From Rhizobium sp. Q54 (lineage in GTDB: Bacteria > Pseudomonadota > Alphaproteobacteria > SMXS01): a stretch of DNA of 11,272 nucleotides. Location: NCBI GenBank assembly GCA_945872035.1, contig CAMBYA010000045.1:1-11272 (forward strand). The letters run 5' to 3'. Both the position numbers and the translations under genes were made by a program. Position 1 is the first letter of the stretch; each line of letters begins with the position of its first letter. The notes beneath the pieces are model-generated. The model was not told the origin of the DNA. It searched no databases and was given only the letters and a program-made list of their open reading frames with translations. This document shows positions 5,645 through 11,272 of this stretch, piece by piece.

Positions 5645-6688
5645 CTACCGCTTCAGCAGCAGCTCGGCGATCTGCACCGCGTTGAGCGCCGCGCCCTTCA
5701 GCAGCTGGTCGCCGGCGGCGAACAGGGCGAGCGTCCGGCCCGACGGATCGGCGGTGTCGACGCGGACGCGGCCCACCAGCACGTCATCCTGCCCGGACGC
5801 CTCGGACGGCATGGGGAAGTGGTTGGCGGCGCGGTCGTCCACCAGCCGCAGGCCCTGGCCGCCCTGCAGCAGCGCGCGGGCTTCCTCCGGCGTCACCACC
5901 TCGTCGAACTCCACCGAGATCGACATGGCGTGGGCGCGCAGCACGGGCACGCGGATGCAGGTGATGCCGATCGGCAGGTCGTCCACGCCCAGGATGCGGC
6001 GGGTTTCGGCCACCACCTTCAGCTCCTCGCCGTTGTAGCCGCTGTCCACGTCCACATCGGCGTTGTGGCTGAACAGGTTGAAGGCGTAGGGGTGCGGCAG
6101 CACCTTCGGCGCATAGGACTCGCCGCGCAGCTGGGCGGCGGTCGATTCCCGCAGCTCCTCCATGGCGGCGGCGCCCGCGCCGGAAGCGGCCTGGTAGGTC
6201 ACCATGCTGAGGCGGCGGATCGGATGCGCCTTGTGCAGCGGCGCCAGCGCCACGGTGGCGATGGCGGCCACGCAATTCGGGTTGGCGATGATGCCGTTGT
6301 GGCGGGACAGCGCCTCGCCATTCACCTCGGGCACCACCAGCGGCACGTTCGGGTCCATGCGGAACGCCGACGAGTTGTCGACCATGATCGCGCCCGCACC
6401 CACGGCGTCCTGTGCGTGGCGGCGCGAGATGCTGGCGCCGGCCGAGAACAGCGCCACGTCGACGCCCTCGAAGCTCCTTGCGGTCAGCTCCTCGATGGCG
6501 ACGTCGTTGCCCTTGAACGGCAGCGTCTTGCCGGCCGAGCGGGCGGACGCCAGCAGCTTCAGGCCGCCGACCGGGAAGTTCCGGCTCTCGAGGCAATTGA
6601 TGAGCTCGACGCCGACGGCACCGGTCGCGCCGACGATGGCGACGACGGGAGCGCTGGAATTGATCTGGCGGGGTGAGGTGGTCTGCAT
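5645..6688 (-). CDS. asd: Aspartate-semialdehyde dehydrogenase
   Basis: A 347-residue enzyme, the family's normal length, which reduces L-aspartyl-4-phosphate with NADPH to aspartate semialdehyde, the branch point for lysine (and peptidoglycan diaminopimelate), threonine and methionine. The NADP loop is GATGAVG (20-26). The catalytic Cys139 lies in NPNCVAA, and the substrate-binding Arg245 and general base His252 lie in RVPVLRAHA, with the 7-residue Arg-His spacing known for this enzyme. The ATG at 6688 is preceded by GAGAG about 6 nt upstream, a sequence that can be sequestered in a hairpin. It is the only asd-like gene in the window. Its 5' region carries a Thr/Lys-rich leader reading frame and alternative RNA structures (separate entries), so attenuation by threonine and lysine supply is likely. 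It is transcribed toward the DUF971 gene. Confidence 0.95.
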   Translation of the reverse strand: MQTTSPRQINSSAPVVAIVGATGAVGVELINCLESRNFPVGGLKLLASARSAGKTLPFKGNDVAIEELTARSFEGVDVALFSAGASISRRHAQDAVGAGAIMVDNSSAFRMDPNVPLVVPEVNGEALSRHNGIIANPNCVAAIATVALAPLHKAHPIRRLSMVTYQAASGAGAAAMEELRESTAAQLRGESYAPKVLPHPYAFNLFSHNADVDVDSGYNGEELKVVAETRRILGVDDLPIGITCIRVPVLRAHAMSISVEFDEVVTPEEARALLQGGQGLRLVDDRAANHFPMPSEASGQDDVLVGRVRVDTADPSGRTLALFAAGDQLLKGAALNAVQIAELLLKR

Positions 6689-6692
6689 GATC

Positions 6693-6770
6693 GTCTCTCT
6701 ACCTTTGTTGTGGGAGAGACAGGGTCGGCATTCGCTCGGTCCCCGTCTCCGGGGCCTTCCGCTCTTGCCG
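6693..6770 (-). promoter_or_regulatory. Predicted asd leader attenuator structures
   Basis: Between the leader stop (6773) and the asd ATG the minus-strand RNA can form (a) a stem of CGGCA (6766-6770) with UGCCG (6726-6730) enclosing an inner hairpin GGCCCCG-GAGA-CGGGGACC (6738-6756, one bulged A), and (b) a hairpin of GUCUCUC (6714-6720) with GAGAGAC (6693-6699) that covers the asd Shine-Dalgarno. Two competing pairings exist: GGCGUUCGCU inside the leader frame (6789-6798) can pair over 10 bp, one of them G-U, with AGCGAAUGCC (6727-6736), excluding the outer stem; and the loop sequence GAGAC (6745-6749) can pair with GUCUC (6716-6720), excluding the SD hairpin. No T-run follows any hairpin, which points to translational or Rho-linked control. 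Folded by hand only. Confidence 0.5.
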
Positions 6771-6772
6771 CT

Positions 6773-6847
6773 CTAAACCGCGCGCACCAGCGAACGCCCC
6801 GCCGAAGCGGTCGTTTTCGTCGTGGTGGTGGTTTTGGTCATCGACAT
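6773..6847 (-). CDS. Thr/Lys-rich leader peptide of asd
   Basis: A 24-codon frame on the asd strand, ATG at 6847 to TAG at 6773, 84 nt before the asd start. Residues 4-13 read TKTTTTTKTT: eight Thr (ACC and ACG) and two Lys (AAA), then ASAGRSLVRAV. A run like this just upstream of a gene for threonine and lysine synthesis is the hallmark of an attenuator leader peptide, as in E. coli thrL, where Thr and Ile codons are used. There is no Shine-Dalgarno, but the promoter at 6856-6884 would start the mRNA within 0-3 nt of the ATG, so leaderless translation fits; leaderless attenuator peptides are known in rhizobia (trpL). A second ATG is at codon 3. The function is inferred from position and composition. 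Confidence 0.7.
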   Translation of the reverse strand: MSMTKTTTTTKTTASAGRSLVRAV

Positions 6848-6855
6848 GGCGCGGA

Positions 6856-6884
6856 CGTTTAGCATGGGCATCCGGTCCGGGCAA
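6856..6884 (-). promoter_or_regulatory. Promoter of the asd leader transcript
   Basis: On the minus strand there is a TTGCCC -35 box (6879-6884), a 17-bp spacer and a TAAACG -10 box (6856-6861). Only 8 nt separate the -10 box from the leader ATG, so transcription would start at or 1-3 nt before the ATG, giving a leaderless peptide. It lies directly after the hairpin that ends the gloA transcript. Spacing is ideal; both hexamers match the consensus partly. Confidence 0.5.
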
Positions 6885-6890
6885 CATGCG

Positions 6891-6918
6891 CGATCCGCAT
6901 GGCTGTCCATGCGGATCG
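6891..6918 (-). terminator. Long perfect hairpin after gloA
   Basis: CGATCCGCATGG (6891-6902) and CCATGCGGATCG (6907-6918) form a perfect 12-bp stem with a 4-nt loop, 13 nt past the gloA stop. There is no T-run on its 3' side on the minus strand, so it may act as a terminator of the weak type or as a 3'-end stabiliser. It separates the cupin/gloA transcript from the asd promoter. Confidence 0.5.
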
Positions 6919-6931
6919 GGCGAAAAAGCGC

Positions 6932-7447
6932 TCAGGCGCCCTGTGTCGCCGCTTCCCGGAAACCGGCCATCAGGGTGCGCAGGTTGGGGCCGGAGACGAT
7001 CTCGATCCAGTAGCCGTCAGGGTCCTTGATGAAGGCGAGGCCCTTCATGGAGCCATCCTGCGGGCGCTTCACGAATTCCACGCCCAGCTGGTCGAGCCGG
7101 GCGCAGGCGGCGTCCACGTCGGGCACGGTCAGGGCGATGTGGCCGAAGCCGCGCGGCTCGGCGTTGCCGTTGTGATAGGCGAATTCCGGGTCGTTCTCGG
7201 TGCCCCAATTATGCGTCAGCTCCAGCAATGCGCGCTGCTCGAACAGCCACTGCACGCGCTCGTCCCGGTCCTGCGGCACCGGACCTTCCGGATAGCCGAC
7301 GAAATACAGCGAAAACTTGCCCGTCTCGAAGTCGAAGCGGTCGATCACGGTCATGCCGAGCGTGTCACGGTAGAAGGCCAGCGAGGCCTCGGGATCGCGC
7401 ACGCGCAGCATGGTGTGGTTGAAACGAAAACCGTCGGTAGGCTGCAT
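6932..7447 (-). CDS. gloA: Glyoxalase I (lactoylglutathione lyase)
   Basis: A 171-residue enzyme that isomerises the hemithioacetal of methylglyoxal and glutathione to S-lactoylglutathione, the first step of methylglyoxal detoxification. Metal ligands expected for the family are visible: His11 (NHTMLRV), Glu76 (LLELTHN), His103 (RGFGHIAL) and Glu149 (DGYWIEIV). The long insert with [12 protein letters not shown] and [14 protein letters not shown] makes it the longer, eukaryote-like subtype, which in known members uses zinc. The open frame extends 63 codons further upstream over the cupin gene, but the ATG at 7447 is the family start. It begins 4 nt after the cupin stop, so the two are probably co-transcribed and coupled. 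A good Shine-Dalgarno is not seen. Confidence 0.95.
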
Positions 7448-7451
7448 GCGT

Positions 7452-7898
7452 CTATACCGCTCCGACCGTCGGTCCGACACCGGAGCGGCGCATCTTCTCC
7501 ATCTCCTCCCAGCTGGTGTAGGTGGTGAGATGTTCGTCATCGTAGAAGATGATCGGCCCGTTGCAGATGAACAGGTACTCGGTATCCTCCATCGCCTCGG
7601 TCGCGCCGTGCAGCACGCCGTTGGGCTCGTAGACATAGTCGCCCGCGTTGAGCACGCCGTCGCGCACCTTCAGCTGGCCCTTCAGGATGAAGGTGTGCGA
7701 CGCGCTGAGATGCTTGTGCGGCGGCGCGATATAGCCCTTCTTCCAGTTGAACAGCACCGCCCAGGTGCCGGTCTCGGCGCCAGTGTACAGCACCTTGGTG
7801 GCCGACAGCGGCGTCTGCTGGATCCACGGCGTCTTCGACGCCTCGACCAGCGTGTCCTGCAGATTGCCGTTGATAGGAAAGATGTCCTGCAATGCCAT
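7452..7898 (-). CDS. Single-domain cupin, possible non-heme dioxygenase (copy 1)
   Basis: A 148-residue cupin resembling the 2,4'-dihydroxyacetophenone dioxygenase/ChrR-like group, where an iron or zinc site acts on oxygenated or diketone-type substrates. Motif 1 is [20 protein letters not shown] (about 55-74), with His61 and His63 and with His68 where many cupins have Glu; motif 2 is [15 protein letters not shown] (about 86-100), with His97. The ligand set is thus all-histidine, as in acetylacetone dioxygenase (Dke1). No substrate can be assigned. Shine-Dalgarno GGGGAG is 7 nt before the ATG. About 80 % of residues match the neighbouring copy 2, and each copy has 148 residues. It precedes gloA by 4 nt. 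Confidence 0.88.
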
Positions 7899-7956: not shown

Positions 7957-8403
7957 CTATTCCGCAGCCTTTGCCTGTGATGCGGCCGAACGGCGCAGCT
8001 TCTCGATCTCTTCCCAACTCTTGTAAACCGTGAAGTGCTCGTCGTCGTAGAAAAGGATGGGCCCGTTGCAGATGAACAGGTATTCCGTGTCCTCCAGCGC
8101 CTCGGTGGCCCCGTGCAGCACGCCGTTCGGTTCGTAGACGTAGTCGCCGGCATTCAGCACGCCGTCGCGGACCTTCAGCTTGCCCTTCAGGATGAAGGTG
8201 TGGGATGCACTCAGATGCTTGTGCTGCGGAGCGACATAGCCTTTCAGCCAGCGGTATAGCACCGCCCAGGTGCCGGTTTCGGCGCCGGTATAGAGCACCT
8301 TGGTGAACGACAGCGGCGTCGTCTGGATCCAGGGCGTCTTGGCCGCCTCGACCAGCGTGTCCTGAATGTTGCCATTGATCGGCTGGATGTCCTGCATCGG
8401 CAT
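7957..8403 (-). CDS. Single-domain cupin, possible non-heme dioxygenase (copy 2)
   Basis: A paralogue of the adjacent copy with the same 148-residue length. By hand alignment 28 positions differ, 8 of them in the last 9 residues and the rest scattered. All motif His residues are kept: His61 and His63 in [13 protein letters not shown], His68, and His97 in NGVLHGAT. Three in-frame ATGs occur at 8409, 8403 and 8397; 8403 aligns base for base with the start of copy 1 behind the shared GGGGA Shine-Dalgarno, so I chose it. It is the first gene of a probable copy 2, copy 1, gloA transcript. Function unknown beyond the cupin fold; an all-His metal site suggests an enzyme rather than a sugar- or DNA-binding protein. 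Confidence 0.88.
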   Translation of the reverse strand: MPMQDIQPINGNIQDTLVEAAKTPWIQTTPLSFTKVLYTGAETGTWAVLYRWLKGYVAPQHKHLSASHTFILKGKLKVRDGVLNAGDYVYEPNGVLHGATEALEDTEYLFICNGPILFYDDEHFTVYKSWEEIEKLRRSAASQAKAAE

Positions 8404-8455
8404 GGTCATTTTCCCCGTTTGGCCCGCGCGCGATGCCCGGACAAGCCCCCCGCAG

Positions 8456-9604: not shown

Positions 9605-10530
9605 ATGTTTAAGCCAATTCTATTGACAGTGCTTCTGTTGATAGCGTGTCAGAGTGCCCTTGCGCAGCAACTGCCGGTCGCGGGCGGGCAATTCCAGCAG
9701 ATACCGCCGTCGCCGGCACGCGAAAGATTCATTCCCGAATTGCGGGTCGAGCGTCCGGACGCGCCGCTCGCGACGGGAGCGGGTGGCGACCGGATTCCGG
9801 TAAGCGCGCTGCATGTCAGCGGCGCGACGCAGTTTTCCGAAGCCGAACTGGTCCGCGCGGCCGAATTCACGCCTGGCCGTGACCTGAGCCTGGCCGTGAC
9901 CTGAGCCTGGCCGACCTGCGCGGCATGGCCGCGAAAATCGCCGCCTATTACAATCGTCGCGGATTTATCGTCGCCCAGGCCTATGTGCCGGCACAGGACA
10001 TCGGCGCCGGCGCCGTCACCATCGCGGTAGTCGAAGGCCATTACGGCGCCGTCAACCTCAACAACCAGACCAACCTGTCGAACGGCCTGGCTCGGTATGT
10101 GCTGTCGGGCGTGGACAGCGGCGATGTTGTGGAGAATGCGCCGCTCGAACGACGGCTTCTGCTGCTTTCGGACATTCCCGGCGTACGGGTCAAGTCGACG
10201 CTCGCGCCCGGATCGCTGGTCGGCACGTCCGACCTGACCGTCGATGTCATGCCGGGACAGCGCGTGACCGGCAGCATTGAGGCCGACAACGCCGGCAACC
10301 GGTACACCGGCGCCTACCGGGTCGGCGGCATCGTCAGCGTCAACAACGTGCTGGGCCACGGCGACGTCGCCAGCGTGCGGGCGCTCACCTCGTTCGACGG
10401 GCTCAACTTCTTCCGGGGATCCTACCAGGCCCTGCTCGGCAACGTCACCCTGGGCGCGGCCTACGGCAACCTGCACTACAAGCTCGGCAAGGAATTCAAG
10501 AGCCTGGACGCGCGCGGCTCGGGCGAAACC
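9605..10530 (+). pseudogene. Broken TpsB-type (FhaC/ShlB) outer-membrane transporter gene
   Basis: TpsB proteins are 16-strand beta-barrels with periplasmic POTRA domains that export a large partner (TpsA) in two-partner secretion. The start has a signal peptide (residues 1-20, cleavage likely after SALA), then a POTRA domain beginning RIPVSALHVSGATQFSEAELVRAAEFTPGRDLS, the NRRGFIVAQAYVPAQDIGAGAVTI block and the barrel start with NAGNRYTGAYRVGG. Two lesions are visible. A 17-bp tandem duplication (9872-9905) shifts the frame so translation stops at 9904 after 99 codons; removing one copy joins the frame to the rest, which continues from 9925. Near 10530 the barrel ends abruptly where unrelated sequence begins, losing perhaps half of the usual 550 or so residues. 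No TpsA partner is in the window. The reading is confident, its activity is not expected. Confidence 0.85.
9872..9912 (+). repeat. 17-bp tandem duplication inside the TPS transporter gene
   Basis: The unit cctggccgtgacctgag occurs perfectly at 9872-9888 and 9889-9905, followed by the first 7 bases again (9906-9912). Since 17 is not a multiple of 3, the extra copy creates the frameshift and the TGA at 9902-9904. With one copy the protein would read through SLADLRG without interruption, which is the expected POTRA sequence. Confidence 0.9.
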
Positions 10531-10545
10531 TGGCCCTTGGTCATC
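10515..10545. other. Rearrangement junction between two truncated genes
   Basis: Up to about 10530 the plus strand encodes TpsB sequence (LGKEFKSLDARGSGE). From about 10530 the minus strand encodes serine hydrolase (LSPKTVQLMTKGQ read leftward). Each loses its family signature where the other starts, so two unrelated gene fragments are joined tail to tail. The exact base cannot be fixed by eye. I see no insertion-sequence ends or target-site duplication. Confidence 0.65.
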
Positions 10546-11272
10546 AGCTGCACTGTCTTGGGCGACAGGATGCGCGCGCCATCCAGCTCGCCGCCGTTCA
10601 GCATCATCTGGCAGAACCGCAGATAGTCGGCAGTGGTCGACACGAGGCCGCCGCCGCCCGACAGGAGTTTCGCGCCGGTCTCGTAGAGGTCCAGGCCGGC
10701 GCCGGGCTTCAGGACGGCCAGCCTGCCGTCGGGACCTTTCGTGTAGAGTTCGGCGAGCCGTCCGCGCTGGCCCGGCGGCACCGTGAACATGGTGTCGTTC
10801 ATCTTCAGCGGCTCGAACAGGCGCTCCTTGAGGAACACGTCGAGCGGCTTGCCGGACACCACCTCGATCACCCGTCCGAGGATGTCGATGGACGCGCCGT
10901 AGTGGTACTCGCCGGGCTCGTCGGTCAGCGGGATGGTCGCCGTCTTTCTCGATAGCTCCTCAAGGGTGTTGCCGGCGTCGAACACGTCCTTCCTGTCGTA
11001 GATTTCCCCGACGGGGGTCCCGTCGTAGCCGCCCGGATAGGTCAGACCCGAGGTGTGCGTCATCAGGTGGAATATCTTCGGTGGAGTCTTCGGTGGCCGG
11101 GTCTTCGGCGCGTCCGGGCCGCCATCCACGTAGACGCCGGTGCCGGCGAACTCGGGAAGATGCATGGATACCGGATCGGTCAGGCGGAGCTTGCCTTCCT
11201 CGACCAGGGTCAGGGCCGCGACGACGGTTATCGCCTTGGTCATGGAATAGATGCGCACCAGCGTGTCGCTAG
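10531..11272 (-). pseudogene. Serine hydrolase (beta-lactamase/class C family), both ends missing
   Basis: A PF00144-type serine hydrolase whose catalytic Ser-x-x-Lys is SMTK (in LVRIYSMTKAIT, near the right edge), with the second motif region EYHYGASIDILGRVIEVVSGKPLD and the later LLSGGGGLVSTTADYLRFCQMMLNGGELDGARILSPKTVQLMT. Family members include esterases, DD-peptidases and beta-lactamases; the substrate is unknown. The frame is open to the window end, so its N-terminus lies outside. After LSPKTVQLMTKGQ the family sequence normally continues for about 100 residues with the last catalytic motif, but here the frame runs into antisense TpsB sequence and stops at 10476. The 3' part is therefore lost, and the product is probably inactive. 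Confidence 0.8.

Follow-up and report, generated by a model that had tools for sequence, protein, structure and literature searches.

The second, accessory asd gene of the DNA analysed here is probably controlled by a ribosome-mediated attenuator, in which a short Thr/Lys-rich leader peptide would act through a relay of alternative RNA pairings on the asd ribosome-binding site (RBS). We call the whole stretch of 11,272 nt that was studied, and not the leader alone, the window; the features concerned are collected in Table 1. An attenuator had been proposed here in a preliminary description of the window, and this reading is supported by the leaders of relatives and by covariation. Comparison of sequences establishes the leader, its codon content, the promoter pattern, the clade-wide conservation and the covariation of the central hairpin B:C.

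Table 1. Features of the asd2 leader region, in window coordinates
Feature	Position	Strand	Basis
asd2, aspartate-semialdehyde dehydrogenase, second paralogue	5645..6688	minus	NCBIfam and tree
Segment E (AGAGAGAC), at the asd ribosome-binding site, predicted to pair with D in the OFF form	6693..6700	minus	site pairing p=0.02
Segment D (CCCTGTCTCTCC), predicted to pair with C or E	6713..6724	minus	C:D and D:E pairing analyses
Segment C (AGACGGGG), predicted to pair with B or D	6741..6748	minus	C:D 8/8 pairs, p=0.010
Hairpin B:C, CCCCG-GAGA-CGGGG, no U-run after it	6741..6754	minus	covariation; tail ACCGAGCGAA
Segment B (GCGGAAGGCCCCGGAG)	6746..6761	minus	duplex energies and covariation
Leader peptide ORF MSMTKTTTTTKTTASAGRSLVRAV, 24 codons	6773..6847	minus	ATG at 6847, stop 6775-6773; homologues before 61/77 asd2 genes
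Segment A, predicted to pair with 0 or B	6786..6802	minus	A:B duplex p=0.056 in window
0:A hairpin CCGC-UUCG-GCGG, within leader ORF, overlapping last Thr codon	6799..6810	minus	sequence; consensus helix of alignment fold
Control codons 4-13, 8 Thr (5 ACC, 3 ACG) and 2 Lys (AAA)	6809..6838	minus	sequence
-10 element TAAACG	6856..6861	minus	sequence and pattern before 54/70 leaders; predicted mRNA start near leader ATG
-35 element TTGCCC	6879..6884	minus	sequence and pattern before 54/70 leaders

The leader carries Thr at positions 4, 6-10, 12 and 13 and Lys at positions 5 and 11, and 84 nt (6772-6689, minus strand) separate its stop codon from the asd ATG at 6688. The preliminary description had singled out this frame of 24 codons, with eight Thr and two Lys at positions 4-13 and 84 nt before asd, and all of this is read directly from the sequence. 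The best density in the window was 8 Thr, or 10 Thr and Lys, per 10 residues, and none of 200 dinucleotide shuffles went beyond 6 and 7, respectively. Upstream of 6847 the frame stays open, with 45 codons counted from an earlier ATG; 6847 is preferred as the start since it is favoured by the promoter and by the alignment. A Thr-rich frame might be expected by chance in a GC-rich window, Thr codons being ACN, but this explanation has practically no chance of being right: it is ruled out by the shuffles (0/200 match the window), by the count of leaders at 61/77 loci and by the tree, where 64 of the 73 rows of the asd2 group carry a leader. The leader frame is real. It is a short ORF whose control codons match the downstream pathway, as judged from codon content and conservation, and in the leader set the Thr, Lys, Ile and Met control codons end at the start of RNA segment A. 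Residues before segment A (n=1027) comprised 36.7% Thr, 15.3% Lys, 7.1% Ile and 5.6% Met, and those from segment A on (n=684) 1.3% Thr, 0% Lys, 1.3% Ile and 1.2% Met, these counts being based on automatic A positions (8-mer A:B search) that are wrong for several rows, the window among them.

The window promoter consists of TTGCCC and TAAACG spaced by 17 nt, and its -10 element ends 8 nt upstream of the leader ATG. A similar pattern, defined as TTGAC, TTTAC or TTGCC followed after 16-18 nt by a hexamer with A at position 2 that ends 5-10 nt before the ATG, was found before 54 of 70 leaders as against a mean of 0.7 and a maximum of 4 in shuffled sequences, the -10 rule being a loose one that demands only this A. 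The set of 70 counts one contig twice (L023 and L168). A generic sigma-70 scan with a stricter -10 rule found no promoter in the leader region. SD-like motifs were detected at 2/70 leader ATGs versus 42/70 asd ATGs. The natural reading of these sequence patterns is that the leader mRNA would be leaderless, starting at or near the leader ATG; a promoter placed for such a start had been predicted in the preliminary description, and its recurrence before the leaders supports this. A leaderless attenuator mRNA that begins at the AUG of the leader peptide is described for trpL/rnTrpL of S. meliloti in the part of PMC10117765 devoted to it; that leader, however, belongs to trpE and is a transcription attenuator. 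Upstream of the leader promoter, in the gap to the glyoxalase gene, positions 6892-6917 hold a perfect 10-base inverted repeat, GATCCGCATG-gacagc-CATGCGGATC, and no U-run follows it.

The downstream gene had been taken for asd, and this holds by NCBIfam, with scores of 410 bits for PRK14874 and 378 bits for TIGR01296, both above cut-off; the tree and the genome counts identify it as a second paralogue and not as the housekeeping asd. By its sequence, the window's asd is placed in a clade distinct from the latter. In a tree of 126 proteins made by a quick method, asd2 formed one group of 73 rows with a support of 99, comprising 64 with a leader, 7 without and 2 that were not scored, and six of the seven belong to one subgroup. 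Within the window's family asd2 was found in 5 of 10 genomes, four of which list a second asd with 42-44% identity; upstream of all seven asd genes of the other kind in this family (L113-L119), a LeuB-like C-terminus recognized by eye ends the stretch. Apart from the window's own genome, which is 78% complete and has one asd match, all 21 genomes with a strong asd2 match contain two. Among plasmid records no close asd2 was detected, the 87 records that matched all lying below 60% identity. The asd2 of L001, which is labelled Candidatus Kuenenia stuttgartiensis, is the same as that of the alphaproteobacterial G236:C49 of the window's genus, and L001 is probably a mislabelled bin. Elsewhere in the window, 7452-7898 and 7957-8409 on the minus strand are a tandem pair of ChrR-type cupin genes, and by eye 9605-10626 on the plus strand looks like a secretion gene of the TpsB/ShlB kind that is spread over two adjacent frames and may be broken.

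To count leaders we used a fixed rule: 12-60 codons, at least eight of T, K, I or M and at least three T in 12 residues, no more than 300 nt upstream. It was satisfied upstream of 61 of 77 asd2 loci versus 3 of 2183 background windows. Among the 16 negative loci, five have weaker leaders by eye (L035, L040, L041, L088 and L175), leaving 11 of the 77 genes that lack a leader in the 300 nt upstream; of these, L013 and L102 lie on shortened contigs. The 48 controls, asd genes of other types, gave five positives, three being leuB ends and two real-looking leaders (L149 and L150). A few leader-bearing asd genes fall outside the asd2 clade: L103 and L106 by their place in the tree, and L149 and that of G146, which likewise belong to the more distant kinds; in G045 the leader (L103) precedes the sole asd found there. 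Besides Thr and Lys, leaders labelled Acetobacteraceae or Roseomonas carry Ile, and most of those labelled Rhodobacteraceae and kin carry Met. Among the strains in which asd2 has a leader are Marivivens donghaensis (L017) and Yoonia tamlensis (L022).

Comparing the regions upstream of asd in relatives, a check proposed in the preliminary description, we observed that most keep the frame with its Thr/Lys run and that the pairing covaries, most firmly in the central hairpin (row L015 of alignment A1 was shortened). The segments can form two sets of pairings, either 0:A with B:C and D:E, or A:B with C:D. By covariation and duplex statistics, these mutually exclusive pairings link the leader to an output hairpin; the D:E hairpin covers the RBS of the regulated gene. 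For B:C, both sides were changed in 32 cells across 52 sequences versus 8.8 after shuffling, and 0 of 500 shuffles scored as high. The alternatives A:B, C:D and D:E are supported but partly modelled. The A:B duplex beat shuffles in duplex energy (p<0.05) in 31/70 sequences, the window falling short of significance (p=0.056), and in several relatives (e.g., L009 and L011) it is a long hairpin that spans the leader stop codon. C:D has all 8 of its 8 pairs in the window (p=0.010), and for no fewer than 25 of 58 sequences the test gave p<0.05; it is weak or absent in several relatives, such as L010, L040 and L160. Since rows are related or hand-picked, as were the 23 A:B representatives, we do not take the combined p values for C:D and A:B as proof. 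Often D tracks the changes in C: GGTCGGGG goes with TCCCGACC in L019, GGACAGGG with CCCTGTCT in L026, and C GCGCGGGG with D CCTCGCGC in L028 and its relatives. When D segments were swapped, the C types GGTCGGGG and GCGCGGGG paired best with their own D, above every foreign D; across 18 C types, 7 were at 0.12 or below and 11 were not, and the window's type (0.26) does not stand out. The D:E pairing at the site exceeded shuffles (p<=0.05) in 20/58 sequences, with p=0.02 in the window and p=0.069 there for hairpin energy alone.

We then modelled the folding of the RNA around a ribosome halted on the leader. With the ribosome at codon 12 of the window's leader, the predicted probabilities were 0.73 for A:B, 0.00 for B:C, 0.99 for C:D and 0.03 for D:E; with the ribosome at the stop codon they were 0.01, 0.61, 0.03 and 0.69, respectively. 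In these folds, made without asd coding sequence, the RBS exposure rose from 0.22 (stop) to 0.48 (codon 12). Over 34 sequences, hand-chosen from the 58 of the C:D test, exposure at the last control codons exceeded that at the stop codon in 25 and fell below it in 2, the mean gain being 0.165 versus 0.005 for 12 shuffled sets, the highest of which gave 0.064. In 27 of these 34, A:B with C:D was at least as stable as 0:A with B:C and D:E. These folds describe equilibrium and ignore the order of RNA synthesis, and the prediction for the window depends on how much of asd is included: up to 15 nt of coding sequence is harmless, 18-21 nt makes the switch vanish, and with 24-45 nt the exposure is 0.30-0.39 versus 0.21, weaker than the 0.48 seen without asd, 24 nt moving it little (0.21 to 0.30). 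The early asd codons (6660-6690, minus strand) hold CCCCGCC, which is able to pair with segment A in the folds, and this pairing accounts for the weakening or loss of the switch in longer folds.

The mechanism that we propose would work as follows. RNA polymerase would start at or beside the leader ATG, and the leader would be translated directly by a ribosome. With charged Thr-tRNA and Lys-tRNA at hand, this ribosome would clear the Thr/Lys codons and reach the stop codon, making segment A unavailable; B:C would then form, D:E would close the asd RBS and no Asd2 would be made. Under a shortage of Thr (or Lys), it would instead stall on the last control codons and cover segment 0, so that A:B forms, C goes to D, E is freed and asd2 is translated. 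The leader would thus be a sensor of tRNA charging. In sister lineages, the same B:C hairpin followed by a U-run would terminate transcription.

What the attenuator of the window controls, transcription or translation, was judged from the sequence after the hairpin. The preliminary description's attenuator has no U-run here: no terminator-like site was found at 6400-7400, the tail after B:C in the window reads ACCGAGCGAA, and the intrinsic terminator, a hairpin with a U-run before the structural gene, is thus missing from the window. RBS masking is the better supported output, and it is other members of the clade that look terminator-like, with a U-run. The 8 nt after B:C contained at least five T in 16 of the 19 sister-subclade leaders versus 7 of the 46 from the window's subclade, the subclades being assigned from the tree and five leaders (L103, L106, L149, L176 and L177) being left out. 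This split suggests that the chassis has moved between termination and RBS masking, and it is also what speaks for purely transcriptional attenuation in the window too, where B:C would be a weak or Rho-assisted terminator and the RBS hairpin incidental; the leaders of truncated thrS genes, with GC-rich hairpins and then T-rich stretches, point the same way. We consider this unlikely for the window, given the lack of a terminator-like site and the recurrence of the site hairpin with different sequences in other leaders (GTCTCTCC/GGAGAGAC, GTCTTCC/GGAAGAC and GTCCTTTC/GAAAGGAC). As the window's hairpin lacks a U-run and the relay ends over the asd RBS, control is probably translational: a translational relay is likely in the window, though modelled, and translation would be its main output.

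To look for the same chassis elsewhere, a covariance model was built from asd2 leaders and used to search 288 genomes of the class, drawn evenly. At E<=1e-6 there were 27 matches in 23 genomes, 20 before asd, 6 before thrS and 1 before another gene; they are a lower bound because just 12 candidates per genome were scored, and the model favours Thr leaders because Thr codons lie inside it. All six ThrRS genes behind these matches pass the TIGR00418 cut-off. In 18 hand-picked genomes, the same threshold gave 20 matches (14 asd, 5 thrS and 1 other); one of these genomes, G089, had no strong match, its best E being 0.288. We searched 11 genomes, picked mostly for having such matches, with TIGR00418, and 7 of them contain a second thrS that is truncated, the first 166-169 model positions being absent. 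A leader of the same chassis precedes 7/7 of these truncated genes (L189, L197, L198, L199, L200, L222 and L223), and in G045 a leader precedes the only thrS, which is full-length (L228). The ThrRS leaders (n=8) have on average 5.6 Thr and 0.125 Lys, L223 being a Thr/Ile/Lys mixture, and the asd leaders (n=70) 5.4 Thr and 2.24 Lys; the difference in Lys gives p=1.3e-6 among relatives that are not independent. The control codons follow the gene behind them, as tRNA-charge sensing predicts. Weaker or unassigned model matches include L204, where a DapA-family gene (HMM) has an Arg/Pro-rich leader, an acetyltransferase gene (L202, HMM), an acetyltransferase-like gene by eye (L203), and L201 and L225.

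The leader might also act otherwise than by tRNA charging. In the type of arrest known from TnaC and SpeFL, the nascent peptide or a free amino acid would be the signal, and a peptide end, TTAxAGR, is indeed kept in many leaders. This stretch is also explained by RNA segments 0 and A, the residues ahead of the Thr run vary, and codon content tracks the downstream gene, Lys accompanying Thr in asd leaders but being almost absent from thrS leaders, which makes such a signal very improbable. Alternatively, the frame could encode a small protein with its own function in trans: the comparable SEP5 frame of S. meliloti is translated and was seen as a tagged protein (passages on SEP5 in PMC10117765), and peTrpL is reported to be active in trans (PMC7298713). 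But outside the control codons and the pairing segments both the length and the sequence of the leaders vary, and 26 of the 27 model matches are tied to asd or thrS, so that a protein acting in trans is extremely improbable. Attenuation by a leader ribosome, as described above, remains the probable reading.

In the region 6400-7400, Rfam gave no match up to E=5, the threonine leader included, so a T-box riboswitch and any other known Rfam element were rejected. The search of six relatives returned one sub-gathering match, to ctRNA_p42d, at the hairpin of the thrS element L198 (31 versus 50 bits). In the thrL leader of E. coli (Rfam RF00506), a leader peptide with Thr and Ile control codons and competing hairpins precede thrABC, and the output is a terminator. 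Control codons in a leader peptide and competing hairpins are found in both systems, but here Thr with Lys, and Ile or Met in some lineages, precedes asd2. Ribosomes stalled on a leader open a hidden RBS by alternative pairing in ermC, which senses macrolides, and in the rtpA leader of B. subtilis, which senses Trp-tRNA; the relay predicted here differs in having six segments (0 and A to E) and mixed control codons. Hairpins masking the SD of amino-acid or tRNA-synthetase genes are also of a known kind, as are leader peptides on tRNA-synthetase paralogues, according to portions of PMC1262725, PMC3896937 and PMC2965389. Like the leaders described here, those of hisS and hisZ in bacilli are leader-peptide attenuators on tRNA-synthetase paralogues, but they use His codons, are found in Firmicutes and act by transcription terminators (PMC2965389, relevant part).

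No such attenuator for asd in alphaproteobacteria was known to the preliminary description, yet the idea is not wholly undescribed. SEP5 of S. meliloti, which has six Thr and three Lys codons and lies in the 5' UTR of a gene called 'aspartate dehydrogenase', was found translated by Ribo-seq and Western blotting, and in 2023 it was suggested as a possible leader peptide; its authors report it as conserved in Sinorhizobium only (the SEP5 passages of PMC10117765). It is likewise a short alphaproteobacterial Thr/Lys frame in a 5' UTR, but the description given in these passages contains no RNA mechanism (PMC10117765). Because of this suggestion, the idea of a Thr/Lys leader is partly in print (PMC10117765, same passages). 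In three genomes of family f33 (L150, L229 and L230), the asd behind the Thr/Lys frames that we found is the other paralogue; the peptide is built differently, the hairpin resembles a terminator and has a U-run, and these look-alikes may correspond to SEP5. For the asd2 clade, the ThrRS targets and the relay, no description was found in open-licence PubMed Central, a scope beyond which lies the 2004 survey of proteobacterial attenuators by Vitreschak et al.

Altogether, these observations may reflect a transferable attenuator chassis of alphaproteobacteria, with codons fitted to the gene behind it: Thr/Lys, with Ile or Met by lineage, for a spare asd that heads the Thr, Lys, Met and Ile branches, and Thr with almost no Lys for a spare, mostly truncated ThrRS. 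Its output would shift within the asd2 clade between termination and an RBS relay, and the whole would amount to a starvation regulon of backup enzymes that works through RNA only, a proposal to which we give even chances. The leaders offer a natural series in which one architecture carries varied control codons and genes and an output that ranges from terminator to RBS masking, so that rules of attenuator evolution become testable by comparison. Such a layer of control easily escapes notice, given the tiny size of the leaders and their probable translation from leaderless mRNA. The findings suggest that a spare Asd is kept by a number of alphaproteobacteria, and a spare ThrRS by some, with expression mostly confined to Thr/Lys starvation.
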